From Micromonospora pallida (GTDB taxonomy: Bacteria; Actinomycetota; Actinomycetes; Mycobacteriales; Micromonosporaceae), in contig NZ_FMHW01000002.1 of the NCBI RefSeq assembly GCF_900090325.1, forward strand, positions 1,178,001-1,242,000: DNA of 64,000 nucleotides, given 5' to 3'. Numbering within the stretch: position 1 is the stretch's first letter; the number at the start of each line of letters is the position of its first letter. Below, piece by piece: positions 495-17,378 of the stretch. The notes beneath the pieces were generated by a model. The model saw only the letters and a list, made by a program, of their open reading frames with translations, ran no database searches and was not told where the DNA came from. The position numbers and the translations under genes were made by a program.

Positions 495-2327
495 TCAGGG
501 GCGCAGGAAGGTGACCCGTTCGGCGGTTTCGGTGAGCTGGAGGGCCAGATCCCCCGAGTCCACCTCGGCCGCCGGCACCCCCAGGGACCCCGCGATCGCG
601 GCGGCCAACCTAGTCGGGGAAACCGTGCCCCGGGGCCCCAGGGGCAGGGGCCCGACCGGGTCGGGGACCCGCTCCGAGCCTCCCGGGGCCCGCAGGGTCC
701 TGCCGAAGCTGCCGGGGGAGTGCGGCTCCACCGCCAGGTGCTGGGCCTCCGGGGGCTGGTGCAGGTCCAGCCGGGCCAGTTCCCCCTCGAAGAGGCAGAG
801 CAGCACCTCCGGGCTCAGCCGGCGGGTCACCCAGGGGGTCAGGTGTCCGGTGCCGGCCCGGTCGGCGTACCCGTCGACGAGCAGCCCCGGGTAGCCCGAC
901 ACCACCTGGGACCGGATCAGGGCCCCGGTGAGGGTGGGGAACTCCAACGGCAGGGGAGCGGCGGCGTCTCGGGCCTCGTCGGCGGGGCCCAGCCGACCCA
1001 CGCTGACCGCCCCGTCGACCAGGTGTCGGACCCAGCCCTGGTCCACCCCGAGGAACCGGATCGACTCGGCCGGCAGCAGCCCCTCGTCCGGCACCAGGTA
1101 GCCGAAGGGCACCCCCTCGAGCCGGGTCAGCCCGGTCAGCCAGTCCGTTACCCCCGCCGGGAGGGAGTCGTCGATCGGGGCCACCGCCAGGGGGTATCCG
1201 GCGTCGAGGTTGCGGGCGGCGCGCTGGTCCCGGGCGGCCTGCTGGTCCCGGCGGCGACGCCACCCGTACAGGCCGGTGGCGGTGTCCCCACTGCCCAGGG
1301 CCAGCAGCCGGCCGAGCTGCCAGGCGGCGGCGTACCCCAGGTCGAACATGCCCAGCTCCGCATCGAAACGCAGCAGAGCGTCCCCGGACCGTACCGGGGC
1401 CACCGGCCCCGCATCCGTCGGACCGGGCACCAGGGGCCCCCGGTACCAGCCGATGCTGCTCCCGCCCTGCCGGAGCCGGTGCCGGGCTGGCACGAACCCC
1501 TGATCGAGGTACCGGTCAGCGGCGGGCTGCCCGCTGGGGGGAAGCCGGAGGGTGGCCCCCTCCTCGGCGAGGTCCCGGACCAGGGTGGCGAAGGTGTGGT
1601 CGGCGCTCACCGAGGCGAACCGCCAACTCGTCAGGCTGACCAGCCGGACGGTGTCCCCGACCGGGGCGGGTCCCCGATCGAGTGCCCACGACCCGTCGGC
1701 GGCCGGGGTGAACCGGTGCTCCAGGGAGACCAGGTGCACCACGCTGGTCATCCCGGCCGGCGGCAGCCGGGTGCCGACCACCACCGCCGCGTCGGCCGGG
1801 TCGTCCCCCTCGGCCCGGACGTGGGCCAGCAGGGGCAGATCGGCGTAGCCGGGCAGCAGGTCGGCGAGGAGCGCGGCCGGGACGTCGATGACGGTGACCG
1901 GCTCCTCGGCCGACTCGTGGGACTCGGCAGCGACGGCGGCCGGCGGCAGCCAGGGGCCCGCCCCCAGCCGCCCCAGGGGCACCGTCGAGACGGGGGGCGC
2001 CTCCTGCTCGGTGAAGAGCAGCAGGGCCAGCCAGGGCGGGGTCTGCGGGCCGCCTCCCCCCGGGCTGCGTTCCCAGGGCAGGGTGGCCCGCTCCAGCACG
2101 ATGTGCGGCAGCACGGTGGCGTGGTCCCCGACACTCCCCTCGGGCGGGAAGACCGACCGGATGAGGGAGGGGGCCAGGCCGAACCGGTCCCCGGCGACGG
2201 TGAACCGACGGGTCGTGGTGAAGTCCACCGGTTCCAGACTCACCCGCTGGGAGAGGGTGACCTGGTAGTTACCGGCGGCCAGCACCGGGCGGTGCTCGTG
2301 GCGGAAGGTCACCTGGGACTCAGACAT
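495..2327 (-). CDS. Uncharacterised 610-residue protein, last gene of the large operon
   Basis: I do not recognise a named family. The protein begins MSESQVTFRHEHRPVLAAG and has no signal peptide or membrane segment, so it should be cytoplasmic unless exported by a special route. It is rich in Pro, Leu, Trp and aromatic residues. Patches that look conserved are FGLAPSLIRSVFPPEG (about residues 48-63) and PWLALLLFTEQE (about 98-109). The ATG at 2327 overlaps the stop of the upstream giant gene by 8 bases, so translation is probably coupled; the only Shine-Dalgarno-like sequence is a weak GGTGG. It is followed by a strong hairpin, making it the promoter-distal gene. Given the lectin-like and tail-fibre-like proteins upstream, a structural role in a large assembly is possible, but this is inference. 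Confidence 0.85.
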   Translation of the reverse strand: MSESQVTFRHEHRPVLAAGNYQVTLSQRVSLEPVDFTTTRRFTVAGDRFGLAPSLIRSVFPPEGSVGDHATVLPHIVLERATLPWERSPGGGGPQTPPWLALLLFTEQEAPPVSTVPLGRLGAGPWLPPAAVAAESHESAEEPVTVIDVPAALLADLLPGYADLPLLAHVRAEGDDPADAAVVVGTRLPPAGMTSVVHLVSLEHRFTPAADGSWALDRGPAPVGDTVRLVSLTSWRFASVSADHTFATLVRDLAEEGATLRLPPSGQPAADRYLDQGFVPARHRLRQGGSSIGWYRGPLVPGPTDAGPVAPVRSGDALLRFDAELGMFDLGYAAAWQLGRLLALGSGDTATGLYGWRRRRDQQAARDQRAARNLDAGYPLAVAPIDDSLPAGVTDWLTGLTRLEGVPFGYLVPDEGLLPAESIRFLGVDQGWVRHLVDGAVSVGRLGPADEARDAAAPLPLEFPTLTGALIRSQVVSGYPGLLVDGYADRAGTGHLTPWVTRRLSPEVLLCLFEGELARLDLHQPPEAQHLAVEPHSPGSFGRTLRAPGGSERVPDPVGPLPLGPRGTVSPTRLAAAIAGSLGVPAAEVDSGDLALQLTETAERVTFLRP

Positions 2328-5300
2328 GCGCTGCCACCTGGGGGATCGCGTGGAACTGGGTGGTGTCGAAGCCGGCGGGGTCGACTACCGCCGAGGGAAG
2401 CAGGGCGGCGGCGACCGCGCTGCGGGCGGCGGCGACCCCTGGGTCGGCCATCGCCGTCCGGATCGTGGTCGCCCGCGCCGCCGGCCCGTCCGGTACGACC
2501 GGCCGTCGGGGCGGCGGGGCCAGGGTGAGCACCTCCCGGGTGTACAGGGGAGTGTCGGCCTGGAGGGCGGACCGGTCCACCCAGACCGCACGCGCCGGGG
2601 CGGGCGGCCGGGGGCGCAGCTCGTACCCGGTGACCAGGTCCTCCATCAGGGCCGGGTCGGTGACCTGGGGAGTGAGCCGGCCACCCCACAGGGCGAAGGG
2701 CAGCCCCTGACGGACCGGGGTGAAGTCGAACCGGTCCTCGACCGGCATCCCCTCGTGGGTGACCACGATCCGGTGGACGGCGGTGACGGCGCCGGGGGCC
2801 AGGTCGGCCGGGCCGATCCCGAACGCGGTCCGGCCCCCGCCGGTGGGCAGGGCCACCTCCCGTTCCGGGGTGCCCCGGACCGCCCCGCTGGCCGGGATGG
2901 CGCTGTTGGTCGACACGACCAGGGTGGCCGGGTCGACGATCCCCAGCTCCTCGGGGGCGGCCCCGGGGGCGGTGCGGTGGGTCTCGGCCCGTACCGACAG
3001 GTCGAGAATCCGGTCCCGGGGCGGCAGCAGGGTGTCCCGGAACCGGTCCCAGCTCACCGGCGCCGGCTTCGCCCCACCGTTCGCGCCGAAGGAGATGCGC
3101 ACCGTGACGATGTCCAGGTCGATGGCGGCGGCACCGCCGAAGTCCGGGCCCCACAACTGGACGTCGGCGCCGACCTGCACGTTGAGGGTGTGGGTGCCGA
3201 AGAAGCTGAAGGTGTACGACACCCCGATGCTGACCTGCAGGGACGCCTCGTAGTGGTACGGCTGCCAGGAGATCAGGAAGTCCATCGAGGCGTCGAACCC
3301 GGCCCGCAGGGAATCGTCCTGCCACAGGGCGGTGACCCGGCCCCCGGCCATCAGCATGGTGGGGGTCAGCGCGAAGTACCCGGCCCCGGCGATGCTGAAC
3401 TGCTCCGTGATCTGCCAGGCGAAGCCGAGCCGGGGCACCGTCGGGTAGTGGGCGGGTACCGGGAACTGGGGGTGGTAGCCCCCGGCGGTGAGGGCGAAGT
3501 CCCCGGCGTGCTCCCCGGTGAACCAGGTGGCGAAGGCGAACCCCCCGGTCAGGTGGCAGTCCGGGGAGAGCAGGTACGAGGCCCGGGTGAGCTGGGCCTC
3601 CACCGCCAGGTACCCGTCCTCGGGGACCAGGGTGGCCTTGATGGCGAGCTGGATCTGGGCGACCGGTTTGACCGGCCCCGCCCCCGCGTCCGGTGCCGGC
3701 AGCACCACCGTGGCCAGCCCCAGCACGTCCAGCTCGAACCGGTGCCCGAGGGCGGCGGCGACCAGCAGGAAGGCGTCCACCATCTCGAAGGAGTTGACCC
3801 GCAGCCCCACGGCGAGGAAGTAGTCCCCGACCGAGGGCGGCAGGTAGTCGGCGAGGATCCGCAACTCGTCGGCGAGGGTGGTGCCCGGGGGCGGCCCGGT
3901 GACCGCGTCGGCTACCAGGGGGAAGGTCGCCACCTGGTCGATGGCGGGGGCCACGAACCGCCGGTTGTACCCGAACCCGCCCGCCAGCCCCCGTAGCGAC
4001 AGGGCGGGCGGACCGGCGTGCAGGCCGTTGAGGTAGGCGTAGGCGAACAGGGAGGGTCCGGCGGGGAGCTGGACGTAGGCGCCGAGGGCCCCGACGGAGA
4101 AGGACGGGGTCCGGACGCTCAGCCCCCCGCTGTACGCGGTGTAGCTGGCCCCCTCGTACTCGATGGTGTCCTTGCGCAGCGCCCCGTCGATGCGCAGCGG
4201 GACGGTGTCGTAGGCCAGCCCGATCCCGGCCAGGTCGAAGGTGGGCATCGAGAGGGGGTCGGTGGTGGAGACCTCGATGGCGAGGCCGCTCAGGGAGAGG
4301 GTCAGCCCGGCCACGGTGACCGAGGCGTCCAGCAGCAGGGCGACCCGGGCCTCCCGGCCGGGGGACTGCCGGAAGGCCAGGCCGACCCGGGAGATGTGCA
4401 GGGGCCCGAAGGAACGCTGGACGGTGAGCCAGGTGGCGTCGTCGCCGGTCCGTACCGGCGCGGGGCCGCCGCTGGCCGGTGCCGGGGTCACCCCCGGCGG
4501 GCCGCCGACCGGTACCGCCAGGGCCTGGGTGAAGGGCCCGAGCACCAGGGTGGCGTCCACGGTGAACCCGGCGGCGAGGCCCCCGCTGGGCATGTCGGTT
4601 CCCTGCGGGAGCAGGGCGGCCAGGGCGGTGGCCTCGGCCGCGGGCAGGGCGGTGGTGGCGGCGAGCAGCCGCAGGGGGTCCACCCCCATTTTGGTGCCCC
4701 GCAGGTGGTCCCCGACCACCGGGAGCCGCCCCAGGTCCAGGGTGGCGGCGACCTCCACCCCGAAGAGGTACCCGGTGCGGGTGCCGTTGCCGGTGAGGGC
4801 GAACAGGGCCTGACGCAGGTCCAGCCGGATTCCCTCGGGCACGTGCGCGGCGGCGGTGGGGGAGATGGCCCCCACCAGGGATTTCAGGTCGGGCACCGGG
4901 TCGGCGGGCAGGTGCCGGTAGGAGGCGGCGAGCCGGTGGGCGGTGGGGTCCTGGGCGAAGTGCAGCTCCAGGGTGGGGTGGAAGGTTCCGCCTTGGACCG
5001 GTACGGCCAGGTCCAGGGTCCCGGCGACGGAGCGTCGGGCGGTGTCCACGGCCAGGGTGAGGGCCACCTCGGTGCCGTCGACCGGGAACCGGGTCCGTCC
5101 GGTGAGGAAGAGGCGTCGGGCCCCGGTGGAGATCTCGGCGGCCAGATTGTCCACGGTGGACTCGGCAAGGGGGGCCGGCAGGGCCAGCCCGCCGAAGCGG
5201 TCGGCCAGGTCGGCGAAGAGGTGCCCGATGGGGATCTGCTGGTCGGGGCCGGTCTCCCCGGCGAACTCCCAACGCCGGTCGGGGGCCGGGTCGTAGGCGG

Positions 5301-6054
5301 CCTGGACCGTCACCCCGAGCCCGCCCAGCAGCAGCCCCGCCCGGGCGTGGAAGGTGGTGCCGGTGGAGTCGTGCAGCAGGTCGAAGCCGACCTGGGTGAG
5401 CGTGACCTCCTCGGTGATCTGCCAGGCGCCGTCGATGACGATCTCGCCGTCGAAGGAGGCGGGCACGGTGGCCGAGGGCACCACGGCCCCGGCCTGGAAC
5501 CGGGTGACCGTCAGATCCGGGACGTGGTCGGGCTCGAGGCCGGTGAAGTGCTGGTAGACCTCCCGGATGCGCAGGGGCGGGTCGCCGACGCGCAGCCCGC
5601 CGCCGATCTGCCGGGTGGCGGAGTCGGCGACCAGCTCCAGGGTGCCGTCCCGACCGATCCCGAACAGGCCGCCGACCAGGACCGACACCTGGGCGGACGG
5701 GCCGGGAGCGACCACCCGGACGGTCAGGTCGATCTGCTGGAGGGTGAACAGCCCGGGGATCACCTCCCAATCCGCCTCGGTGTACAGGGTCATGGTCAGG
5801 TACTCGACCGGGTTCGCGGCGGTGGGGTTCACCGCGAGGGTGACCGCCCCCAGGGTGATCCCGGCCCCCGGGTCGATGCCGAAGGGCACCGACAGGGTCT
5901 CCAGCCCGACCAGGCCGGCGATGTCGGTCAGGGTCAACGGGCCCAGCTTGCTGAAGTCGGCGGTGAGGACCAGGTCCTCGCTCCAGGAGGCGAGGCGAGC
6001 GTCGATGGTGATCTCGTGGTCCTCGGTGACCCCGGTCATGCTGCCCGCCGACAC
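2320..6054 (-). CDS. Giant beta-rich protein resembling the DUF6603 family (main part)
   Basis: 1244 residues from a GTG at 6054. The C-terminal half matches my memory of DUF6603, a large uncharacterised family of bacteria and some fungi. Recognisable segments are LAGIGLAYDTVPLRIDGAL, the Gly/Tyr-rich GGFGYNRRF, GGYHPQFPVPAHYPTVPRLG, ISWQPYHYEASLQVSIGVSY and FGTHTLNVQVGADVQLWGP. The N-terminal half is a series of beta-strand-like stretches rich in Val, Leu, Gly and Thr. There is no signal peptide or transmembrane helix. The GTG start has no good Shine-Dalgarno sequence and lies inside the upstream gene. Reading upstream in this frame gives ALVLAAGIPVSAGSM, which joins smoothly to the upstream protein if one G is added to the G5 run (plus-strand C5 at 6081-6085). 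I therefore suspect that this and the 6036-6776 gene are one gene of about 1485 residues. Confidence 0.8.
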   Translation of the reverse strand: MSAGSMTGVTEDHEITIDARLASWSEDLVLTADFSKLGPLTLTDIAGLVGLETLSVPFGIDPGAGITLGAVTLAVNPTAANPVEYLTMTLYTEADWEVIPGLFTLQQIDLTVRVVAPGPSAQVSVLVGGLFGIGRDGTLELVADSATRQIGGGLRVGDPPLRIREVYQHFTGLEPDHVPDLTVTRFQAGAVVPSATVPASFDGEIVIDGAWQITEEVTLTQVGFDLLHDSTGTTFHARAGLLLGGLGVTVQAAYDPAPDRRWEFAGETGPDQQIPIGHLFADLADRFGGLALPAPLAESTVDNLAAEISTGARRLFLTGRTRFPVDGTEVALTLAVDTARRSVAGTLDLAVPVQGGTFHPTLELHFAQDPTAHRLAASYRHLPADPVPDLKSLVGAISPTAAAHVPEGIRLDLRQALFALTGNGTRTGYLFGVEVAATLDLGRLPVVGDHLRGTKMGVDPLRLLAATTALPAAEATALAALLPQGTDMPSGGLAAGFTVDATLVLGPFTQALAVPVGGPPGVTPAPASGGPAPVRTGDDATWLTVQRSFGPLHISRVGLAFRQSPGREARVALLLDASVTVAGLTLSLSGLAIEVSTTDPLSMPTFDLAGIGLAYDTVPLRIDGALRKDTIEYEGASYTAYSGGLSVRTPSFSVGALGAYVQLPAGPSLFAYAYLNGLHAGPPALSLRGLAGGFGYNRRFVAPAIDQVATFPLVADAVTGPPPGTTLADELRILADYLPPSVGDYFLAVGLRVNSFEMVDAFLLVAAALGHRFELDVLGLATVVLPAPDAGAGPVKPVAQIQLAIKATLVPEDGYLAVEAQLTRASYLLSPDCHLTGGFAFATWFTGEHAGDFALTAGGYHPQFPVPAHYPTVPRLGFAWQITEQFSIAGAGYFALTPTMLMAGGRVTALWQDDSLRAGFDASMDFLISWQPYHYEASLQVSIGVSYTFSFFGTHTLNVQVGADVQLWGPDFGGAAAIDLDIVTVRISFGANGGAKPAPVSWDRFRDTLLPPRDRILDLSVRAETHRTAPGAAPEELGIVDPATLVVSTNSAIPASGAVRGTPEREVALPTGGGRTAFGIGPADLAPGAVTAVHRIVVTHEGMPVEDRFDFTPVRQGLPFALWGGRLTPQVTDPALMEDLVTGYELRPRPPAPARAVWVDRSALQADTPLYTREVLTLAPPPRRPVVPDGPAARATTIRTAMADPGVAAARSAVAAALLPSAVVDPAGFDTTQFHAIPQVAAHV

Positions 6055-6776
6055 CGGGATGCCCGCCGCGAGGACCAGCGCCCCCGGACCCGGTGGTCGA
6101 GGGTGTGGTAGTTCAGGTCGGGCAGGCCGAACAGCCCGTACCGCAGGTTGGTGAGGGTGAACAGCCCCAGGTCGAGGCCGGCGTCGGCAGGGCCGTACAG
6201 GGCCACGCTCGGCACCAGGGGGGCGGCCGGTGTGATCCCGGGTGGGGCGAGGGAGACCATGGTGATCTCCCCGGAGAGGGGGTGGCTCTCCCCGGGGAAG
6301 AGCAGCCCGACCAGCTCCATCCCGGGCCGGATCAGCAGGTTCCCCTCGAAGGCCATCCAGGTGGCGGTCGGGACGGGGGGCTCCCCGCTCTCCGCGATCA
6401 GGTCGGTGTCCAGGCGCAGGACGGCCCCGCTGAATCGGAGAGTGCCCAGCAGGGTCCCGCGCAGGGGCGGGAACGTGTCGGCCAGGGACCAGTCGGCGGC
6501 CGGCCGCACGATCACCTCCACCCGGCTGACGGTGTCGCCGGTCAGGGTGAACCGGAGGGTCACGTCGGCCCGGTCGAAGGGTGCTCCGGAGCCGGTGCCC
6601 TCGATGGTGACCGGGCCGGGGGCCTCGGCGCGTTCACAGCCGGTCAGCAGCAGCCGGCCGGTGGGCAGGAACCGGCCCAGGTAGGCGGCGGTCGGGGGGT
6701 CCAGGGCGGAGACCGGCAGGTCGAGCCGGCCGGAGGGCACCCCGGCCAGCAGGGTCTCCAGGGCCTCGGGGGTCAT
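6036..6776 (-). CDS. N-terminal part of the DUF6603-like giant protein, or separate 246-residue protein
   Basis: The ATG at 6776 overlaps the stop of the MBL-fold gene (ATGA), and GGGAGAAG upstream is a good ribosome binding site. The product is beta-rich and of unknown function. Up to about residue 232 it reads as ordinary protein (ending GLPDLNYHTLDHRVRG), then abruptly becomes Arg/Ser/Cys-rich (RWSSRRASRCRRAA), which is typical of out-of-frame GC-rich DNA. Adding one base in the run at 6081-6085 continues instead into ALVLAAGIPVSAG and the next gene. The short ending is thus probably an artefact or a frameshift mutation. If it is real, the two proteins would be coupled subunits. Confidence 0.7.
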   Translation of the reverse strand: MTPEALETLLAGVPSGRLDLPVSALDPPTAAYLGRFLPTGRLLLTGCERAEAPGPVTIEGTGSGAPFDRADVTLRFTLTGDTVSRVEVIVRPAADWSLADTFPPLRGTLLGTLRFSGAVLRLDTDLIAESGEPPVPTATWMAFEGNLLIRPGMELVGLLFPGESHPLSGEITMVSLAPPGITPAAPLVPSVALYGPADAGLDLGLFTLTNLRYGLFGLPDLNYHTLDHRVRGRWSSRRASRCRRAA

Positions 6777-8113
6777 GACTTCTTCTCCCAGGTGATGTCG
6801 AGGTCACCGTGGGACCCGGTGATGTAGACCGGGGCCTTGAAGGGGAACTGGAGGGACATCGGGGGATTCCAGTTCTCGGAGTCCCAGGCCCATCCGGAGT
6901 GGGGCGGAGTCTTCTCCCGGCCGCTGTCGATGAACCGTTTGACGTAGCGCTCCACCACGGTCCGGGAGGGCAGGTGGTGACTGGTCACGCCCTCCTTCCC
7001 GGCGCTGATCAGGGCTTTCTCCTTCGGGTCCACCAGGTTCACGAACTCCAGGGAGGAAGAGGTGCGGTTGCTGCCGTGGTGGGCGATGTGGACGACGTCG
7101 ACGTTCTTCAGCCGGGTCCGGTTCTGGGCGGCGTACATCCCCCGGCGCATGAGGTGGTGCTCGGTGCTGCGGGTCGAGTCCCCGCAGAGCAGCAGCTTCT
7201 TGCCGAAGACCTCCACCAGGAGCACCACGCTGCCCCGGTTCTTGCCCGGGTCTCCGTCTTTCTTGTAATTGTTCACGACCCCGGAGGCCAGGATGGTCAC
7301 CGTGCAGGCCGGGTCAGTCTCGGCCACGATCCGGATGCCGCCCTGGGCGTCGAGGCAGTCGATGTCGGTGGCGGTCATCGCCGCCGGTAGGGCGATCCCC
7401 TCCAGGGTCGTCTCCCCGGCCACCTCACCCTTGTTCAGTTTCTTGTCGGGGTCGACCGCGTTGTGGACCACCTTGCGGATCAGGTTCTCGTTCACGATGT
7501 GCTGACGCACCCAGGTATTGGCGGTGCCGTAGTCGGCGAAGTTCCCGCTGTGGTAGACCCGGCCGACCTGGATCTTGTAAGGCTTGTCGGCGAGCACCGT
7601 GGCGAGCTGGTTGTAGTGGTCCTCGTCGGAGTGGGTGAAGATCAGGATGTCGATGAGCTGGGCCCTCGGGGTCGTGCCGAAGACGGTGGTGGTCTGCGCC
7701 GGGCCCAGGAACTTCGGATCCTCCAGGCAGTCCCGCACCCGCTTGGTGTAGACATCGGCCTCGGAGTCGTCCATCTCCTTCGAGGTGGAGCCGCAGTCGA
7801 TGAGGATCATCCGCCCACCCGGGGTGCTCAGCACGATGCAGTCCCCCTGCCCCACCTTGATCATGCGGGCGTAGAACTTCCGGTCCCCCCGGTTGCCGGG
7901 GGCGGCCGGGGGCCGCTTGCTGACCTCGTCCTCCCAGAGCTTGGACAGGGCTGCGGCCTCCCTCCGGAGCCTTGCCTCGTGCTCCTCCTGCAGCTTGATC
8001 CGCTTTTTTTTGGACTCCTTGCGGCTCTTGTGGAGAATCGTCTCCCCGTCTCTCAGGCCGAGGTCGTAGTCGGCCGTCTTCCGCTTGCGCGTCGGAGGGT
8101 TCGGGCTGGTCAT
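6773..8113 (-). CDS. ComEC-like metallo-beta-lactamase-fold hydrolase
   Basis: 446 residues. The ATG at 8113 is preceded by GAGGAG six bases away, so I prefer it to an upstream alternative at 8170. Residues 25-65 form a Lys/Arg/Glu-rich, probably coiled-coil helix (KSRKESKKKRIKLQEEHEAR). From about residue 80 comes an MBL fold of the ComEC/Rec2 soluble-domain type: VGQGDCIVLSTPGG, ILIDCGS, the metal motif THSDEDH (residues 160-166, the HxDxDH variant), LLLCGDS (metal-bridging Asp) and IAHHGSN (distal His pair). All key ligands are present, so it should be an active phosphoesterase, nuclease-like or lipid-hydrolase enzyme; the substrate is unknown. No membrane domain is present, unlike true ComEC. 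It is the only recognisable enzyme in the operon. The next gene overlaps by ATGA. Confidence 0.85.
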   Translation of the reverse strand: MTSPNPPTRKRKTADYDLGLRDGETILHKSRKESKKKRIKLQEEHEARLRREAAALSKLWEDEVSKRPPAAPGNRGDRKFYARMIKVGQGDCIVLSTPGGRMILIDCGSTSKEMDDSEADVYTKRVRDCLEDPKFLGPAQTTTVFGTTPRAQLIDILIFTHSDEDHYNQLATVLADKPYKIQVGRVYHSGNFADYGTANTWVRQHIVNENLIRKVVHNAVDPDKKLNKGEVAGETTLEGIALPAAMTATDIDCLDAQGGIRIVAETDPACTVTILASGVVNNYKKDGDPGKNRGSVVLLVEVFGKKLLLCGDSTRSTEHHLMRRGMYAAQNRTRLKNVDVVHIAHHGSNRTSSSLEFVNLVDPKEKALISAGKEGVTSHHLPSRTVVERYVKRFIDSGREKTPPHSGWAWDSENWNPPMSLQFPFKAPVYITGSHGDLDITWEKKS

Positions 8114-8123
8114 GCTGCTCTCC

Positions 8124-10757
8124 TCAGCTCGGGAAGGCGATCCGCCAGCGGCCCTGGCTGACCCGTTCACCCTTGCGCCGCCAGGTGAAGACGTGTCGGC
8201 GGTCGTTGTCGAAGGGGCTGAAGTCGGCGGCGTAGGCGAACTCGTTCTGCAGCACGTTGTAGAGGTCGAACTCCAGCTCCCCGGCGGCCAGCCGCAGCAG
8301 GGCCCGCAGCTCGTGGGCGCCGATGGTGACCCCGTCCACGGTCAGGGCCTGGAAGGTCCCCCGGGCGGCCCGGACGTCGCTCAGGTCGTCGGAGCCGCCC
8401 TGCTTGAACGCGAAGCCCTCGGGGCGGCCCTCGATGCGGTGCCAGAACTTGTGGGAGTGGTGGAAGCGGATGCTGGGGTGGACGTCCACCCCGTCCGGGG
8501 TCTGAGCCTGGTACAGCTCCAGGAACAGGACCCCGCCGCCGCTCTGGGCCTCCCGGCGGAGCTGGAGGTGGTCGGAGCCGGCCGTGAACACCGACTGGCC
8601 GGCCGCGAGCCGGGTACCGCGCACCTCGTCGGCCTGGAGCTGGGGGGTCGTCACGGTGCCGGCCACCAGAGGCCCGGTCGTCACGGCGCTGGCGGTCAGC
8701 GCCCCGGTCTGCACGCCGGTCAGCTCGTCGGAGTTGCCCTGCTTGAACGCGAAGCCCTCGGGGCGGCCCTCGATGCGGTGCCCGAACCTGTTGGCGTGGT
8801 GGAAGCGGATGCTGGGATAGACGTCCACCCCCGGCGGGGTCTCGGCCTGGAACAGCTCCAGGAACACCACAGGCCCCCCGCTCTGGGCCTCCCGCCGCAG
8901 TTGCAGGTGCTCGGAGACCGCCTGGACGGTCAGCGGGGACTGGGGCGCGGTGGTGCCGATGCCGACCCTGTTGCCCAACGGGTTGATGGCCAGAGGCGCG
9001 GAGCCGTGGGACTGGATCCAGGAGTACCCGGTGTCGTAGCCGAGCCGTAGGTTCGGCTGGTGGGTGGGGCCGACGATGACGCTGCCCCCGTTGGCGTCGC
9101 CGTTGTCGTCCACGATGTGCAGCCGGGCCTGGGGGGTGGCGGTGCCCAGCCCGGCGTTGCGGGCGGAGAAGACCAGGGGCGCCCGCTCCACCGCGGCGCT
9201 GAGCTGGCCGTCCTGGAACCCGGGGAGGTTGCGGTAGGCCAGCACCACCGGGGCGTGGCCGGGGTCCGGCAGCCCCTGCACCTCCTCCAGGGTCAGCTCC
9301 AGGCACCCCCCGGGGGGCAGGGTCGTGTCCTGCTGGGGGATCAGGGTCCACTGGGCCCGGTCCGCCAGCATCTCCCGGTGGACCTGCCAGACCCCGGGAA
9401 CCGACCCCCCGACCCGGAGGGTGACCGTGCCGGCGGTACCGGCGGTGGTCAGGGCCCAGTCCCGGGTCTCCCGGTCGCCCTGCACCTCGAAGGAGAGGAC
9501 CAGCTCGGTGGGAGCGGTCCCGTCCGCCCCGGTCAACGGAACGGGAATCTCCCGGGAGACGTTGGCCACCCGGACCCGCAGGTCACAGGGGGTACGGCCG
9601 TCGCTGAGCACCCGGTCCCCGCCGACGAACCCCAGGTGCAGGGGTACGTCGGGTCGACCCCGGTGGTTGACGATCTCCAGCACCTGGTGTCGGGCCCCGG
9701 TCAGTTCGGTGGGCTCCCCGCTGTACCCCATGCGCCGGTAGCCCAGCTCCACCCGGCTGCCCCGGGTGCCCCCCACCCCGTCGGCCCGCAGCCCGGTCAG
9801 GGGCAGGTCGAGGGAGTTCCCGGCCGGCAGGGTCAGCCCCTCCGGTCCGCGCAGCCAGCCGGTGGACCCGGTCAGGGACAGCTCCCACCCCGGCACCTCC
9901 ACGGCCGGCCGGGTGTCGGCGGCCAGCACCCCCTGGCGGAAGGTCACCGCGAGGTGATGGTTCTCGGGACCGGTGGGTCCGGGGGCCGACCAGAGGACCA
10001 GGTCCTGGCGGGAGGAGTTGGTGACCCGCAGGGTGAGGGTCTGTCCCGCCGGGGTGTCGTCGATGTAGAGCACCGGCTGGTCGTCGACGTTGACCAGCTC
10101 GAAGGTGAGGGGGTGGGTACGGACGAAGGTGGCGAGCAGGGCCTCGTCGCCGGCCATGTCCCGCTGGATCTCGGCCACCGACCGAGGAGCGTCGTACACC
10201 CGCAGGTGGGCCGCGGCGAGCGCGAGGTGGTAGCTGACGGAGTTGGGGTCGCGGCCCAGCGCGAACCTCTCCCCGTTCGGCTGGGTGGGCCCCGGCATCG
10301 CGTCCTCGGCCACCACCATCCCGTCCAGCAGGATCCGGGCGGTGCTGTCCTGGCTGGTCACCGCCAGGTGGTGCCACTGGTCGAAGGTGAAGGTCCCCGG
10401 GGCGGTCTCCTGCTGGAAGGGGCCGTTCACCGTGGAGCCCTGGTACACGATCCGACCGTCGTCGACGAGCCAGAGCGCGAAGTGGCCCCACTGGCCGAAG
10501 ACGACGGCCTTCGAGTTCGACGGCATCGGGGGCACCCGCACCCAGGCCATGCTGGTGATCGGCCGGGTCACGCCCGAGGTGCTGACCACCGCGTCGGAGC
10601 CCCCGCCCAGGGCCAGGCAACTGCCGAACCGGTTGTCGGCGCGGACCTGCGGGGCACCTTCGATCTCCCCGGTGGCCGGGGCGGCGGGGGAGCCGGTGAC
10701 CAGGGGGCCGCGGGCCAGGTCGTCGAGCTGCCAGTGCAGCAGCAGGGTGGCGCTCAT
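8124..10757 (-). CDS. LamG-lectin protein with phage-tail-fibre-like repeats
   Basis: 877 residues, ATG at 10757 overlapping the stop of the 72-residue gene. Residues 1-205 resemble a LamG/concanavalin-like domain (LLLHWQLDD start, WVRVPPMPS, FDQWHHLAVTSQ, RILLDGMVV, LRVYDAPRS). The middle part is beta-rich. From about residue 530 come tail-fibre-type motifs, GLGTATPQARLHI and RVGIGTTAPQSPLTV, like the short repeats of phage tail fibres that often precede a trimerisation or chaperone domain. Two near-identical 65-residue modules follow (LQLRREAQSGG ... IEGRPEGFAFKQG), separated by about 48 residues, then a C-terminal cap ending GRWRIAFPS. There is no signal peptide. I infer a carbohydrate-binding fibre, possibly trimeric. 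The next gene starts 10 bases downstream. Confidence 0.85.
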   Translation of the reverse strand: MSATLLLHWQLDDLARGPLVTGSPAAPATGEIEGAPQVRADNRFGSCLALGGGSDAVVSTSGVTRPITSMAWVRVPPMPSNSKAVVFGQWGHFALWLVDDGRIVYQGSTVNGPFQQETAPGTFTFDQWHHLAVTSQDSTARILLDGMVVAEDAMPGPTQPNGERFALGRDPNSVSYHLALAAAHLRVYDAPRSVAEIQRDMAGDEALLATFVRTHPLTFELVNVDDQPVLYIDDTPAGQTLTLRVTNSSRQDLVLWSAPGPTGPENHHLAVTFRQGVLAADTRPAVEVPGWELSLTGSTGWLRGPEGLTLPAGNSLDLPLTGLRADGVGGTRGSRVELGYRRMGYSGEPTELTGARHQVLEIVNHRGRPDVPLHLGFVGGDRVLSDGRTPCDLRVRVANVSREIPVPLTGADGTAPTELVLSFEVQGDRETRDWALTTAGTAGTVTLRVGGSVPGVWQVHREMLADRAQWTLIPQQDTTLPPGGCLELTLEEVQGLPDPGHAPVVLAYRNLPGFQDGQLSAAVERAPLVFSARNAGLGTATPQARLHIVDDNGDANGGSVIVGPTHQPNLRLGYDTGYSWIQSHGSAPLAINPLGNRVGIGTTAPQSPLTVQAVSEHLQLRREAQSGGPVVFLELFQAETPPGVDVYPSIRFHHANRFGHRIEGRPEGFAFKQGNSDELTGVQTGALTASAVTTGPLVAGTVTTPQLQADEVRGTRLAAGQSVFTAGSDHLQLRREAQSGGGVLFLELYQAQTPDGVDVHPSIRFHHSHKFWHRIEGRPEGFAFKQGGSDDLSDVRAARGTFQALTVDGVTIGAHELRALLRLAAGELEFDLYNVLQNEFAYAADFSPFDNDRRHVFTWRRKGERVSQGRWRIAFPS
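8382..8577 (-). repeat. Internal direct repeat, copy 2 (fibre module)
   Basis: About 196 bases encoding a module with LQLRREAQSGG, VHPSIRFHHSHKF and IEGRPEGFAFKQGGSDDL. It matches the copy at 8721-8916 in length and at most positions, with differences clustered in the middle (for example HSHKFW against HANRFG). It is the product of an in-frame duplication within the fibre gene. Confidence 0.85.
8721..8916 (-). repeat. Internal direct repeat, copy 1 (fibre module)
   Basis: This copy encodes LQLRREAQSGG, VYPSIRFHHANRF and IEGRPEGFAFKQGNSDEL. The DNA as well as the protein is closely conserved between the copies, so the duplication is either fairly recent or kept uniform by gene conversion. In-frame gain or loss between the copies would change fibre length. 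Confidence 0.85.
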
Positions 10758-10972
10758 GCCGGAGAGCCCGGGACGACGGGGGCGGCGGAGGCGGCGGCAC
10801 CGGGGGCGGCCGGTCGGGTGCCGGCCGGGGCCCCGTCCGGGTGGAGCTGGGCCCCGGCCTGCTGGCCGATGCTCTCGATCAGTTCGTACACACGGACGTA
10901 GGGCATCTGACCCAGGGCCTCCATGATCGTGTTCGTCTGGTCGAGGGTGAGAGAGAGGGTGATCGGGGGCAT
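10754..10972 (-). CDS. Small phage-type protein (72 residues)
   Basis: The ATG at 10972 has AAGGA eight bases upstream; an alternative ATG at 10981 is less well placed. The N-terminal 42 residues (LSLTLDQTNTIMEALGQMPY ... VYELIESIGQQAGAQL) resemble small proteins often found beside phage tail-fibre genes, which share the pattern of Leu-Thr-x-Asp/Glu-Gln, then ALG, then a PY or PF step before a second helix. The rest is a Pro/Ala-rich tail, probably disordered. Its stop overlaps the ATG of the lectin/fibre gene (ATGA), so the two are almost surely co-translated. This supports a phage-derived origin for the fibre part. The function is unknown; a fibre-associated or chaperone-like role is a guess. 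Confidence 0.7.
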   Translation of the reverse strand: MPPITLSLTLDQTNTIMEALGQMPYVRVYELIESIGQQAGAQLHPDGAPAGTRPAAPGAAASAAPVVPGSPA

Positions 10973-11013
10973 CGCTCGCATCCTTGATCCGGTCGGGTGA
11001 CCGGGGTGGTGGC

Positions 11014-14000
11014 TCATCGGGTGGGTGGGGTCGGGGTGGGCAGCGCGAGCCAGCCCTCCCGCAGGGTCAGGTCGGTGGGGAACCCCGGGTTTGGGGCGGG
11101 GGGATCCTCGGTCTCGGTCCAGACGGCACCCGCCCGCTCCCGCCAGGTCCACCGGCGCCCCGGCTCGGTGGCGGGCAGCACCAGCCCGACCTCGGCCGCG
11201 TCGGTCAGCACCGGGGCGGCGAGGAAGCCGGTCTCCAGGCGGGCCAGGGCGGCGTGGTGGTGGGCGGGGTCCAGCCGTACCGAGACGGTGGGCAGGATGC
11301 CGGTGGTGGCGTGCAGGGCCCCGGCCGGCTCCAGGAGCACCGTCAGGGTCTCCTCGGGCAGACCGAAGGCGAGCCGTACCGGGGGGTCGGTGCCGGCGGC
11401 GGCCATGGTGGGCACGTCGTGGTACTCGGTGCCGAGGCTCCCGTCGGGCTCGTGCCGCCAGTAGCCCAGCACCCCGTCGGCGAGCCGCCCGTACGCCCCC
11501 AGCCGGACCGGGAACCGCACCAGCGGGAAGCCGTTGGTCTCCCGGCCGGTACGCCCCAGGTCCTGCCGGAACACGTTCCAGTCCTGGTGGATCGCGGGAG
11601 GGCCGAGCAGGTCCAGCCCGACGGCCAGGCGCAGCACCGCGATCGGTCGGCCGGTGAGCCGGGACCGGACCTGGTGGCCGCCCTCCCCCTCCTCGACCAC
11701 CGCCTCCAGGGCCTCGATCAGGGAGCTGAACAGCTCCCCGAGCCGGTCGGCCCCGTACCCCCGCAGCCGGTCGACGACGGCCCGCAGCCCAGGGTTGGTG
11801 ATCTGCTCCACGGCGGGAAACCCCCCGGTGGGGGCGGCCAGCCAACGGGCCAGGGCCGGGCGGTCCGGGTCCGGGTCGGGAAGGAGGCTGCCCAGCCACT
11901 CCCCGCTGGCGGCGTGTACCCGCAGTCCGTCGTCGAGCAGGTCGGGCAGCAGCCACCCGCAGACCGGGGAGGACTCCACCAGGCCGCTGACCGGCCGGCG
12001 CGGGTGCTCGGCGTCGAGCAGCCGCAGCCGCAGTCGGGCCGGTTGGGCCACCCGGGGCGGCAGGGCGATCCAGCCCGGCCGGTCCGGTACCCGTAGCCGG
12101 GTGGTGGCGGCGGGCTGGTCCACCGAGAGGTCGTGCCCGACCCCGAAGGAGTCCACCACCCGCAGCCGCAACAGCCGCAGGCACCCGGCCCGCAGGGGGT
12201 TGAAGTCGGCCAGGGGCACCGGGGCCTGCCGGTTCTGCTCCCCGACCCGGTCCCGCACCTGCTCGGCGAGGAACTGTCCGGAGGGGAAACCGAGGGGGTC
12301 GAGGATGGGGAGCTGGCGGGTCAGCCGGCGCATCAGCAGGGCATCGTTGAACCCGCCCAGGCTCTGGGCCAGGTTGCTCCCCTCGTGCTCGGCCAGGTGG
12401 GCGTAGGCGGCGGCGAGGGTCCCCAACCGGAGGTCGGCCGACTGGTCGGCACACCAGGCGAGCAGGGCCCCGGGGTCCCCGGTCACCTGCTCCGGGGTGA
12501 GGGGCCCCAGTCCGGCGGCCGCCCGTTCCTCGTTGTACCGGGCCAGGGGGCCGCCTGCGAGGTACCGCAGGATCCGGGCCGAGAGCAGCGGGCGGGTGGC
12601 GGTGGAGAGCACGGTGCTGCCGCTGTAGGTGACGGCCGCCCGTTCGGTGAGCCGGTGCCCGGGGCGGGGCGCCAGTTCGACCTCCCCGGCTGGGAGCCGG
12701 TAGTTGAGGCTGACCACCTCGGGGTCGTAGTCCCGGTCGGTGGGGTCGAGGTTGGTCCCGGGGGCGGACGGCAGGAACTCCACCTCCCAGTGCAGCAGCA
12801 GAGGATGCCAGGGCTGGCCGGCCCAGCGGCGCAGCGCCGGGTGGGGTTCGGTCAGCCCGGCGAGGACCGTGTCCAGCAGGTCGCCGGCGGCGGCGAACCC
12901 CTCGGCCTCGGTCAGGGCCCCGACCGCCCCGGGGGTCTCCACCACCAGGCAGGGCAGCAGGCCCTCGGGGTGCTCGTCGTCGCTTCCGTACCGGTCCGAC
13001 CCGGTGGCCTCGGCGCCGGTGAGCAGCACCACCGGCTCGTTGGGCACCTGGTACGAGTCGTCGGGGAGCTGCTGGAGCCGGTAGCCGGCCCCCTCCGGCA
13101 GCTCCGCGTTGACCCGGGCCACCACCGCCTCCACCGCCTCCCGGGCCGCCGCCAGCCGGTGGGCCAGGGTGTCCCCCCGCCCGCTCGGGGGAACTCCCCG
13201 GTCTCGGCGAGCAGGGCGTCCAGGGCCGCCAGCTCCCGTTGCAGGTAGGCGGCTGCCAGGTCCGGGTCGGGGTAGTCCGTCCGGTTCTCCGGAGGCGGGT
13301 AGGCGCAGGTCAGGTACCGGTGCCAGTCGGCGAAGAGACGCTGCCGCAGCCCGGTGGCCTCGGCCTGGGCCCCCTCGTGGGTGGCCTGGGCGGCGTTCAG
13401 GGCGACCAGCAGGTCACCCAGCTCGGGCGGCAGGTCGGCCAGCTCCCGGGCGGGGGCAGCCCCCACCGGGGCGAGGCCGGCGGGGCCGGCGGCGGCGACC
13501 AGGGCCGTCGGGTCGGTACCGGGGACGGCGTCCTGGGGCCGGACCGTCCAGCGGGTCCCGGCGGCGACCGGGGTGAAGGCAGCGGTGTGCCGGGCCTCGG
13601 CGAGCCGCTCCGGCAGGTCCAGGGTGGCGGTCTCCAGGTGTTCGGCGAGGTCGATCGCCTCCAGGAGCTGCTCCATCTCGTCGGCGCTCACCCCGGGCAG
13701 CTCCGCCCCCAGATGGGCGGCGAGGGCCTCGGTGGCGCTGTCGGCGAGGTAGACCCCGGTCCCGGTGGTCCGGGTGTCGAACAGGGACAGCTCCCCCTCC
13801 GGGTCGAGGGTCAGCCGGCCGAAGCAGACCATCCGCTCCGGGGCCGCCCCCTCGGGCCCCGCCGCCCAACCCAGCTCGTCGGCCACCCGCTGGGCCCAGG
13901 TGCCGGTACCCGGCCGGGCCAGGGTGCCGGTCAGCTCGTCCAGGGCGGGGGAGGAGTACCAGCCGAGCAGGTCGTACCGGGTACCGGCCGGGGGCCGGGT

Positions 14001-14615
14001 GCCCGACTGGGGGTCGAAGAACCCGAAGACGCTGGCCGAGTTGGGGTAGAAGGCGGCGAAGGTGGGTTCCCCGTACCCGAGGGCGGTCAGCCGGGCCACC
14101 CGGTCGGTCTCCGGCCCCGGCCAGGCCCCGAGGGGCAGGACCCGCCCGAGCCGCCGCCAGGGCCGACCCGAGGGGCCCGGGGGGTCGGCGGGGGAGAGGG
14201 GGTAGGCCACCGAGGCGGGCGACTCGTCGGTGAGGGCGTCGCTCTCCACCACCCACCGGGCCCGCCGGCCGTCGGGGTCGGTGCGGGTGACCAGCCACCG
14301 GTCGGGTACCCGGGGCGGCTGCACCGCCGCCTCCCGCCCTCGGCCGGGGACGCCCTCCTGCGGGCCGTGGACCAGGCGGGTCAGTGCGTCAGGCAAGGCC
14401 CAGTGCAGGTGGACCCCGGCCTGGAGGGTGAACTCCTCCTCGAAGGGGGCGGGGAGGATCCCATCGCTGAGGAAGGGCTGGTCGGGGTGGACGTCCCGCC
14501 CGGTGACCGGGTCACAGTAGGGCAGTCGGGTGAAGTCGGCGACCGGGCCGGCGACGGTCCGCTGGGCCGGGAGCCACAGTGCGTCGATTCGGACGGGTAC
14601 GGCGAGCAGACGCAT
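11014..14615 (-). CDS. Giant protein of unknown function, first gene of the operon (frameshifted)
   Basis: The frame from the ATG at 14615 (GAGGG eight bases upstream) is sensible up to about residue 480 (ending LLAETGEFPRAGG), then turns into Trp/Arg/Ser-rich noise. The correct sequence resumes in another frame as DTLAHRLAAAREAVEAVVAR and runs on to 11014. Adding one base to the run of six C on the plus strand (13173-13178) gives one frame of 1200 residues. I do not recognise a family. Likely conserved patches are LHWALPDALTRLVHG, VPDRWLVTRTDPDG, GEPTFAAFYPNSASVFGFFD and RYDLLGWYSSPALDEL in the N-terminal part, and YNEERAAAGLGPL and SLGGFNDALLMRRLTRQLP in the C-terminal part. It has no signal peptide or membrane helix. 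As read it would give a truncated protein and, at best, a second product from an internal start. Confidence 0.75.
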
Positions 14616-16110: not shown

Positions 16111-16947
16111 TTAGCCGGGCGTCCCGGCGCGCTCGTTTCTTTGGGCGAGGCGCTGGGCTTGCCCGTTGTGCACATCGCTCACCCACTCCCAGCCGGGCTT
16201 GGCCGATGGGCCGATCCGCGGGTCGTTGGGAACATGGCCGTCACGCAAGGCGAGCACGTACGCCCGATCCTGCTCGATCCGTGCACGTACCTGGTCAGCT
16301 CCGCCGACTGACCCGTGGCCGGGGACGACGACATCGACATCGCCCGCCACGTCCTCCAGCAGCCGCAGTGCTGCGAGGTAGTCCTCGATCGGGTCAGCGG
16401 TGCCGTTCAGATCGAGCATTGGAATCAAGACATCAGAGAGCATGTCGCCGGCGACGAGAACCCCGCGTTCTTCGACGAACAGCGCCGCATGGCCCGGCGC
16501 ATGTGCTTGATGCTCGATGATCCGGACTTGAGGGCCATCCCAGGGGATCTGCGTCGTCTCGGCGGGCAGGGCGGTGATCAGGCCGTACAGGTCCAGCGGT
16601 ACCCGGTCGGCGATGCCCGTCGGTTCCAGGTGGGCGGTTATCTCGGCCTTCGCACCGGGGTCGGACAGCTCATCCCGGACGGTGGCCGCGCAGCGGGCCG
16701 TGCCGTAACGAGGGGCCGCGCCAAGCTGGGCGTGCCACAGCAGGTGATCCCAGTGAGGATGCGTCGAGAAGCCTGCCACGACGGCCTGGTCCGAATGGGA
16801 CAGGTCGTTCGCGATGCAGGCCATTTCCTGGTCCTGCACCCCGGGGTCGATGAGCAAAACACCGGCGCGGCCTTGCACGACAATGGAATTGCTCTGGAGA
16901 AACTCGCTCTCGTGGATCAGCACACCGTCCGCGACCTGTCTCAGCAC
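16111..16947 (-). CDS. MBL-fold metallohydrolase
   Basis: 278 residues from a GTG at 16947 with AAGGGG five bases upstream; the frame extends further but the extra part overlaps the hxlR pseudogene on the other strand and has no family character. Metal-binding motifs are THPHWDHLLWH (HxHxDH with Trp in the variable place), the third-ligand region EHQAHAPGHAALFV, LVAGDMLSD (bridging Asp) and VVPGHGSVGG. The N-terminal VLIHESEFLQSNSIVVQG and LLIDPG are typical of the fold. The substrate is unknown. The 63 bases to the start of a broken HxlR regulator suggest that this gene was once controlled by it. Confidence 0.88.
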   Translation of the reverse strand: MLRQVADGVLIHESEFLQSNSIVVQGRAGVLLIDPGVQDQEMACIANDLSHSDQAVVAGFSTHPHWDHLLWHAQLGAAPRYGTARCAATVRDELSDPGAKAEITAHLEPTGIADRVPLDLYGLITALPAETTQIPWDGPQVRIIEHQAHAPGHAALFVEERGVLVAGDMLSDVLIPMLDLNGTADPIEDYLAALRLLEDVAGDVDVVVPGHGSVGGADQVRARIEQDRAYVLALRDGHVPNDPRIGPSAKPGWEWVSDVHNGQAQRLAQRNERAGTPG

Positions 16948-17010
16948 GATGACCCCTTCCGCTTGTGGTCTGCAACCGCCCGGCGAGACGGTAGTGCCTG
17001 GCAGTAATAG

Positions 17011-17238
17011 GTGGCAAGCATCATGGGCGAAGCGAATGAGCCGCGGTCGGAGTGCCCGGTCAACGCCGCCGTCGAGGTGTCCGGCGATCGCCGGAGCCCG
17101 CTCGTCCTGGTTGGCATCGTCTTCGGAGACCGCCGCTATTTCCGAGAACTGCAAGCCAACTCTATCGAGGGGATCGCCTCGAATATTCTCGCCGACCCAC
17201 TCAAGTGACTCGTCGAGTCGGGACTGCTCACCCGTGAC
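17011..17238 (+). pseudogene. HxlR-family regulator broken by a stop codon
   Basis: From GTG 17011 or ATG 17023 the frame gives NEPRSECPVNAAVEVSGDR, then LVGIVFGDRRYFRELQA, then EGIASNILADPLK: the N-terminal two thirds of an HxlR winged helix. A TGA at 17206-17208 then interrupts it, and the same frame continues LVESGLLTRD, the expected next segment (family pattern LK-R-LV--GLL-R). One change, CGA to TGA, explains the stop. After 17238 the rest of the domain is not recognisable, so the 3' end is lost too. It is divergent from the MBL hydrolase at 16111-16947. Confidence 0.75.
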
Positions 17239-17255
17239 GTGCGTGCCGTGACCGG

Positions 17256-17339
17256 TCAGGTCGGACCACCAGCAGCGCGGAACCGGTTGCGGGCCCGATG
17301 CAACCGCACCGCGTAGGTGGGACGCGACCAGGCGAGGGT
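17256..17339 (-). pseudogene. Possible 3' remnant of a sigma-factor gene
   Basis: The last 27 codons of a minus-strand frame read LAWSRPTYAVRLHRARNRF and a short tail. This resembles the end of region 4 in ECF sigma factors (pattern A-RVRLHRARRRLR). Upstream in the frame there is nothing sigma-like. The match is short, so it could be chance. Confidence 0.25.
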
Positions 17340-17378
17340 GAGAAATTTCCACGAGAACGCTGTGCAGCACAGCAATAA

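Follow-up and report, generated by a model that had tools for sequence, protein, structure and literature searches.

The 64,000-nucleotide stretch analysed here, from the genome of the soil actinomycete Micromonospora pallida (the window; G000:C2:1178001-1242000, part of a 7.76-Mb genome) contains a minus-strand operon of six genes, designated A, B, C, D, EF and G. Three of the encoded proteins, the DUF6603 protein F and the large proteins G and A, constitute a trio that is encoded and inherited together as a block, and comparison of related sequences shows that the enzyme gene preceding F is swapped on a kept F-G-A core. The combination of a fixed trio with differing digestive enzymes suggests an unrecognised modular machine that carries enzymes to a target, and we judge the chances to be about even that it is a modular, horizontally moving, multi-protein effector complex. 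That such a complex is delivered, has a target and is toxic to it we infer.

The window operon

The operon runs as a tight series from position 14615 to 495, with high third-position GC content, and neighbouring frames overlap or sit at short gaps. Lengths are given in amino acids (aa).

12912..14615, minus strand: A, N-terminal frame, 567 aa; matches A-profile positions 2-458; joined to the next frame in one open reading frame (ORF) in relatives
11014..13134, minus strand: A, C-terminal frame, 706 aa; matches A-profile positions 453-1174; 82 homologues at E<=0.001; no known family
10754..10972, minus strand: B, small protein of 72 aa; family f12, found in 5 loci including the window; present in some of the type I loci
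8124..10757, minus strand: C, 877 aa; LamG/ConA-like lectin domain and fibre-like C-terminal part; family f7, found in 9 type I loci including the window
6773..8113, minus strand: D, putative ComEC-like hydrolase of the metallo-beta-lactamase (MBL) fold, 446 aa from ATG (465 aa from a GTG at 8170); in the variable enzyme slot
6036..6776, minus strand: E, 246 aa, a separate frame in the window; matches EF-profile positions 1-232; the N-terminal part of F in relatives
2320..6054, minus strand: F, core protein, DUF6603 giant beta protein of 1,244 aa; PF20248 at E 3.9e-135
495..2327, minus strand: G, core protein of 610 aa, no known family; at least 1,895 homologues at E<=0.001; AlphaFold2 model with a mean predicted local distance difference test score (pLDDT) of 81.5

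An initial annotation of this DNA had described seven packed genes. The tight series stands and the number does not, since E and F form a single ORF of 1,436-1,496 aa in five relatives (L061, L048, L052, L060 and L077) and A homologues at full length are single proteins, mostly of 1,070-1,240 aa. The window operon is therefore one of six genes that is conserved in close relatives; the order A, B, C, D, EF, G recurs in L060, L061, L052 and L077 with gaps of -8 to 67 bases. The protein of about 1200 residues reported at the head of the series indeed lacks a known family; it was read as one open frame and is found as two overlapping frames (12912-14615 and 11014-13134). Both the A break and the E/F break lie inside G-rich stretches of the assembly and may stem from either sequencing error or decay; intact copies exist elsewhere.

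The single terminator that had been proposed was not recovered: a consensus scan yielded no minus-strand site and two plus-strand sites, against 3.0 expected by chance, and a GC-rich inverted repeat seen by eye after G has no T run. By a crude hydropathy test no protein of the operon has an N-terminal signal-like or transmembrane segment, in agreement with the initial annotation; the best 19-residue hydropathy means range from 0.65 to 1.74, the maximum lying inside F. A second MBL-type hydrolase frame, recognised by eye, lies directly upstream of the operon (window 16111-17370, minus strand).

F, G and A are inherited as a block

The search for DUF6603 covered genome sets at phylum (296 genomes), genus (151), class (394) and order (35) level and 199 Streptomyces-type genomes, sets that partly overlap, as well as plasmids. 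Up to 20 kb was read around 103 genome places, together with seven plasmid stretches; within the genus, 31 of the 36 DUF6603 genomes were read. Locus counts exclude L001, L003-L039 and L088-L112 (short search loci), L087 (a test record), the duplicates L002 (same contig as L061) and L166 (same record as L082), and L081, L144, L145 and L146, which hold no DUF6603 protein by the models used, leaving 106 loci including the window. Genes in part of the loci were called by a codon-usage script, with approximate starts, frames perhaps broken and short genes perhaps missed.

A G-family neighbour is present at 105 of the 106 DUF6603 loci and an A-family neighbour at 98, with both at 97. Seven of the nine incomplete loci reach a contig end (L041, L114, L115, L122, L130, L136 and L142), in L056 F and G are joined in a single ORF, and L133 has no A in the stretch read. 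The initial annotation had held that the window genes belong together and had named absence of co-occurrence in other genomes as the result that would count against it; the neighbourhood comparison was run, the genes do co-occur, and the grouping is upheld. Among the 151 Micromonospora genomes, G occurs in 14 and A in the identical 14, all within the 36 that have F; the chance of such identity is about 5e-20, a figure that ignores relatedness. Seventeen of the 22 genus genomes with F that fall outside these 14 were read, and all carry the type III layout described below.

The three core genes also share their histories. Distance matrices for F, G and A, computed over 50 type I/II and 43 type III loci, correlate with r of 0.92-0.94, compared with permutation maxima of 0.12-0.27 (1,000 permutations), and for each gene pair the nearest neighbour of both genes is the same locus in 57 of the 93 loci. 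When 19 loci from eight hand-picked multi-copy genomes were compared, 56 of the 57 core genes were closest to a locus of another genome and one to a locus of its own, which indicates that the trio moves as a block. One Streptomyces-type genome (G869) has five DUF6603 loci (L147, L150, L153, L154 and L168), belonging to types II and III, and every one of them has its closest relatives in other genomes.

The distribution of the trio is patchy, at times multi-copy, and extends to plasmids and other phyla. DUF6603 is present in 9 of 296 phylum, 37 of 394 class, 36 of 151 genus and 25 of 199 Streptomyces-type genus genomes, with one DUF6603 protein in the window's own genome. Among named organisms, G has its nearest relatives in Micromonospora rosaria DSM 803 (93%) and M. 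echinospora (93%), and its homologues include proteins of Streptomyces, Nonomuraea, cyanobacteria (Lyngbya, Cylindrospermum, Hormoscilla) and a Gemmatimonadaceae metagenome-assembled genome (MAG); those of A include one from a Blastocatellia MAG. Locus tags in several genera put G first, EF second and A sixth in the gene order, as in the six-gene operon (Streptomyces sp. NBC_01136: G 39350, EF 39345, A 39325; Actinocorallia herbida: G 3667, EF 3668, A 3672). No paper in the literature searched mentions DUF6603 or PF20248.

Two side observations concern the margins of the family. L144-L146 (genomes G493, G461 and G731) and genome G478 have weak partial DUF6603 matches of 28-41 bits in ORFs of 1,404-2,286 aa, which may represent a distant DUF6603 group with another context. 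A Paenibacillus sonchi plasmid (L081:16923-21894) carries a G-like gene with a large gene behind it and no DUF6603 gene in the stretch read, possibly a minimal or decayed version.

Three locus layouts

Type I loci have the order A-(B)-C-D-EF-G and comprise the window, L048, L052, L060, L061, L077, L121, L124 and L126. Type II loci have the order F-G-A, and in many of them A is followed by f0 genes, which occur in 29 loci, including the Streptomyces plasmid loci L082 and L083. An MBL-type gene stands before F in type II loci L040, L051, L079, L083, L148, L151 and L154, and in seven others (L042, L064, L067, L068, L071, L134 and L135) F is 2,658-3,341 aa long and G is divided between two genes. 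The Paenibacillus polymyxa plasmid locus L080 is also F-G-A. In type III the order is slot gene-F-G'-A', and 16 loci include an f2 gene. Type III F matches type I F by profile (hhalign 99.4%) and G' aligns with the opening ~110 residues of G (94.9% by hhalign, 108 columns); A' compared with A by hhalign gave no match. The type III G and A labels come from profiles built from genes picked by position, and blastp, which is independent of those profiles, links 26 of 27 type III G and 26 of 26 type III A.

F itself is very variable in length (L050, L056, L136; L042, L067, L068, L134), reaching 3,341 aa, and among the longest F proteins the N-terminal 2,000 aa of that in L042 have no Pfam family. 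A single ORF of 2,846 aa appears to encode both F and G in L056. In L058 (7869-17443, minus strand) a long F is split over five called frames that match consecutive parts of the L067 and L068 F proteins, through sequencing error or decay. About 9 kb upstream of F-G-A in L080 (2454-7449; P. polymyxa plasmid p-YT9A) lie annotations of phage baseplate assembly protein V and DUF4280, with a GH-E family nuclease annotation between.

An exchangeable enzyme slot before F

We defined the slot gene as the gene directly before F on the same strand, at a gap of up to 150 bases, that is not A, F or E. Such an operonic gene was counted in 59 of the 106 loci, and in 39 of the 59 it belongs to a family with hydrolase hits (18 PhoD-type f1, 15 MBL-like, 3 M64, 2 S8 and 1 M14), which bears out the earlier suggestion that the operon includes one hydrolytic enzyme. 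Four f1 members were scanned: PhoD scored above its cut-off in L049 and L055 and below it in L044, and gave no match in L163, whose protein has DUF7800 and, like that of L049, a peptidoglycan-binding domain. For the MBL-like genes (f3, f31 and f34; 15 loci), Lactamase_B lies above cut-off in L048 and L079 and below it in L040 and L126; the L148 gene has the motifs and no Lactamase_B match. The peptidase slots are M64 in L043, L053 and L161, S8 subtilase in L132 and L162, and M14 carboxypeptidase in L066.

The remaining slot genes are more varied. The f18 gene (2 loci) is tentatively serine-protease-like, with TCGH and GDSG motifs read by eye and no Pfam match in L159, and a tentative Tox-REase-9 match in L054 (E 0.0097) is under cut-off. 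Propeller genes occupy the slot in four loci with f8 (WD40 in L045) and one with f10, and genes without a family are f16 (3 loci and L058), f19 (3 loci), f32 (2 loci) and those of L041 and L065. The L139 slot gene is counted among the 59 and lies outside the family scan. An alpha/beta-hydrolase candidate for L058, itself below cut-off, was rejected: its 666-aa frame is, like frames of 380, 243 and 482 aa, a piece of the fragmented F, and the true slot gene of that locus is the f16 member.

Exchange was assessed in pairs of loci whose F proteins share more than 42% identity and whose slot genes show no similarity or a short one. Eighteen such pairs were listed, and 14 remain after removal of three with L058 and of L040/L079, which has an MBL-type gene on both sides. 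Five of the 14 have different assigned enzyme families on the two sides (identities from the best local alignment):

L066/L132: M14 against S8; F 57, G 69, A 62%
L161/L162: M64 against S8; F 58, G 58, A 61%
L043/L066: M64 against M14; F 46, G 48, A 38%
L066/L137: M14 against f1 (PhoD family); F 42, G 43, A 44%
L053/L076: M64 against f1

Predicted folds and the origin of the core

Library scans of the window proteins with Pfam, NCBIfam, PHROG and PADLOC assigned no family to A, B, E or G, B giving a single chance-level Pfam line (E 0.13), so that G, already noted as an unrecognised 610-residue protein, stays without a family. The LamG, ComEC-like MBL and DUF6603 identities given in the initial annotation were confirmed by matches to PF13385 (C, E 3.7e-18), PF00753 (D, E 7.6e-6) with a partial ComEC match to TIGR00361 (D, E 2.5e-17), and PF20248 (F, 451.7 bits against a gathering cut-off of 27, covering model positions 1-453 of 502).

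The match of D to TIGR00361 scores 62.3 bits, below the cut-off of 190.05, and involves the MBL part only; the nearest solved structures are ComEC/Rec2 MBL domains. D has the motifs HSDEDH and HHGS, and motif pairs of this type occur in nine of the 11 f3 slot genes of other loci, the pattern missing those of L077 and L124, and are absent by pattern from four f31/f34 slot genes. D is most likely a nuclease or phosphodiesterase. Its partial PADLOC and NCBIfam matches are mainly to MBL proteins of defence systems (LmuA, E 1.7e-21; RTasMBL; Avs1a; 6A-MBL), and no PADLOC family was found in the seven window frames other than D. These matches, the patchy and multi-copy occurrence in mostly filamentous or differentiating bacteria, and core proteins without signal-like N-termini would suit an intracellular conflict system, for example an anti-phage system, in which the giant core senses an invader in the cell and releases or activates the hydrolase. 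The defence matches nevertheless lie far under the curated NCBIfam cut-offs (AVAST type 1, 41.9 of 420 bits; 6A-MBL, 42.3 of 220 bits), library scans of F, G and A gave no NTPase, STAND, nucleotide-sensor or DNA-binding family, the LamG and peptidoglycan-binding domains point to surfaces, and a term search of the main text of the survey PMC7159879 found no LamG, M64, PhoD or MBL. We regard a conflict system as doubtful, and it is the foremost of the alternatives to an effector complex.

The AlphaFold2 model of F (1,094 residues; pLDDT 73.8; predicted template-modelling score (pTM) 0.41) resembles the long-strand beta sheets of LptD, porins and ApoB. Foldseek matched it to LptD (E 5.9e-6), ApoB100 (4.5e-4) and, more weakly, LPD-3 (8.4e-3), and the hydrophobicity of its strands alternates above shuffled sequences (z 5.2). 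A profile search of PDB sequences with F gave a chance line only. From the model one might propose a lipid-handling complex, with F as a groove or barrel that holds lipid and the unit as a whole producing lipoprotein-like particles or modifying lipids; we consider this quite unlikely, given the low pTM, template-modelling scores by query length of 0.06-0.14 with root-mean-square deviations above 27 A in the Foldseek rows listed, and a set of slot genes to none of which a lipid enzyme is assigned. The G model has no PDB match and no viral structural match at E<=0.001, and the PDB profile search with A returned lines at E 0.42-0.68 only.

The initial annotation had further suggested that the unit derives from a phage tail, and for the core this is not supported. 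F, B and C, searched by tblastn, found nothing in 50,697 phage records (A was not among the queries); a pattern scan of IMG/VR based on the G alignment, limited to two peptide patterns, gave no relative; and PHROG matched nothing in A, B, E, F or G. The 72-residue protein B, described earlier as phage-type, thus matched no phage family by PHROG or tblastn. Likenesses to phages are found among the accessory proteins: C has weak PHROG tail-fibre lines (E 0.08-0.23), its homologue in L048 matches virion-structure, tail-fibre and baseplate-wedge families (best E 2.6e-24; baseplate-wedge line E 6.7e-5), and D matches a PHROG 'tail protein' over its MBL part (phrog_7043, E 1e-11). The D match and those of the L048 C homologue indicate that accessory parts have domains in common with phages. 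Many loci are accompanied by lectin-, fibre- or propeller-like genes (LamG/fibre; WD40/Kelch/lactonase-type), in keeping with the LamG/fibre component reported at the outset. No sheath, tube, baseplate or AAA ATPase family was found in the eight window frames, as had been stated, the neighbours of other loci having been scanned in part. A phage-sheath-family gene (84 bits) occurs elsewhere in the same genome (G000:C2:4776452-4776919) and may mark a contractile injection system or prophage. These accessory domains and the sheath-family gene are what would speak for a remnant of a phage tail or contractile injection system; with that gene ~3.6 Mb from the operon and no phage relative of F, B, C or G found in these searches, we hold such a remnant to be highly improbable.

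Discussion

Our preferred reading is that of a modular effector complex. F, G and A, made without a Sec signal, would form a large scaffold or particle, which might be freed by lysis or stored in the cell until needed. C-type proteins would fix the complex to a surface, C being the putative binder in the window, and the long-strand beta sheets of F could insert into the membrane of the target or wrap its lipid. The hydrolase would be the payload; in the window this role would fall to D, the ComEC-type MBL enzyme. In its boldest form the proposal is that F-G-A represents a class of enzyme-delivery machine not described before, which occurs in Gram-positive bacteria and beyond and has no kinship with phage tails or Tc toxins. 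It would be a giant beta barrel or a lipid-clad scaffold carrying one interchangeable hydrolase per locus, which a lectin or fibre subunit aims and which is put through or onto a target membrane. This form we advance tentatively, as possible rather than probable.

Several observations weigh against an effector complex. The type III G and A are tied to those of types I and II by position and a short G profile match only. The 'fibre-like' label of f0 was given by eye, and of six f0 members scanned one, in L116, resembles a tail fibre, and that weakly (E 0.0069). Neither a translocation domain nor an immunity gene was identified. Under the slot definition used here, 47 of the 106 loci lack an operonic gene ahead of F, so the slot enzyme is not universal; many of the 47 are type II loci with f0 behind A, and the window is among them only through its split-off E frame. 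For 16 of the 59 slot genes a hydrolase assignment is either not firm or lacking, and 4 more are of WD40/propeller type, and some enzyme-family members fall under Pfam cut-offs or have no match (L044, L040, L126, L148 and L163). Finally, 8 of the 59 slot proteins have a hydrophobic N-terminus by crude hydropathy, and thus some may be exported on their own.

This last feature would agree with an extracellular scavenging or wall-remodelling complex, whose core would present a phosphatase, peptidase or nuclease on a surface to serve nutrition or development; those slot enzymes that have an assignment are degradative hydrolases, and lectin and peptidoglycan-binding domains are present. The same hydropathy measure, however, finds such an N-terminus in 0 of 105 G, 0 of 98 A and only 3 of 106 F proteins, and patchiness with block transfer suits conflict better than housekeeping nutrition. 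We think a scavenging complex unlikely, somewhat more so than an intracellular conflict system.

What is new is that G and A, giant proteins without family assignment, make up with DUF6603 one co-inherited unit that has an exchangeable enzyme slot. Should the unit deliver enzymes, it would represent a bacterial delivery machine of a new kind, in which cargo is exchanged naturally; should it act inside the cell, it would represent a new defence architecture. Either way, a testable role is offered for many unannotated giant genes, at least 1,895 of them homologues of G alone.

Comparison with known systems

F carries DUF6603 (PF20248), a Pfam family of unknown function that does not extend to the trio, the enzyme slot or the E domain. 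D has the same type of MBL motifs as ComEC/Rec2 but has no membrane part and falls far under the TIGR00361 cut-off. In fold only, the long antiparallel strands of the F model would curve towards a barrel or groove as in LptD, porins, ushers and ApoB100; the low structural scores, the chance-level PDB profile line and the Gram-positive host set F apart from these proteins. With contractile injection systems the unit has in common a fibre-like binding protein and release by lysis as a possible route, whereas the window frames have none of the sheath, tube, baseplate or AAA ATPase families. Tc-type toxin complexes and polymorphic toxin systems differ in that no TcA/TcB/TcC-type family was detected in the window proteins (Pfam and NCBIfam, E<=1), and a translocation channel, cocoon or immunity gene is not shown for the window unit; yet they would share with it a large multi-protein scaffold, binding parts, an exchangeable enzymatic payload and the lack of a Sec signal.

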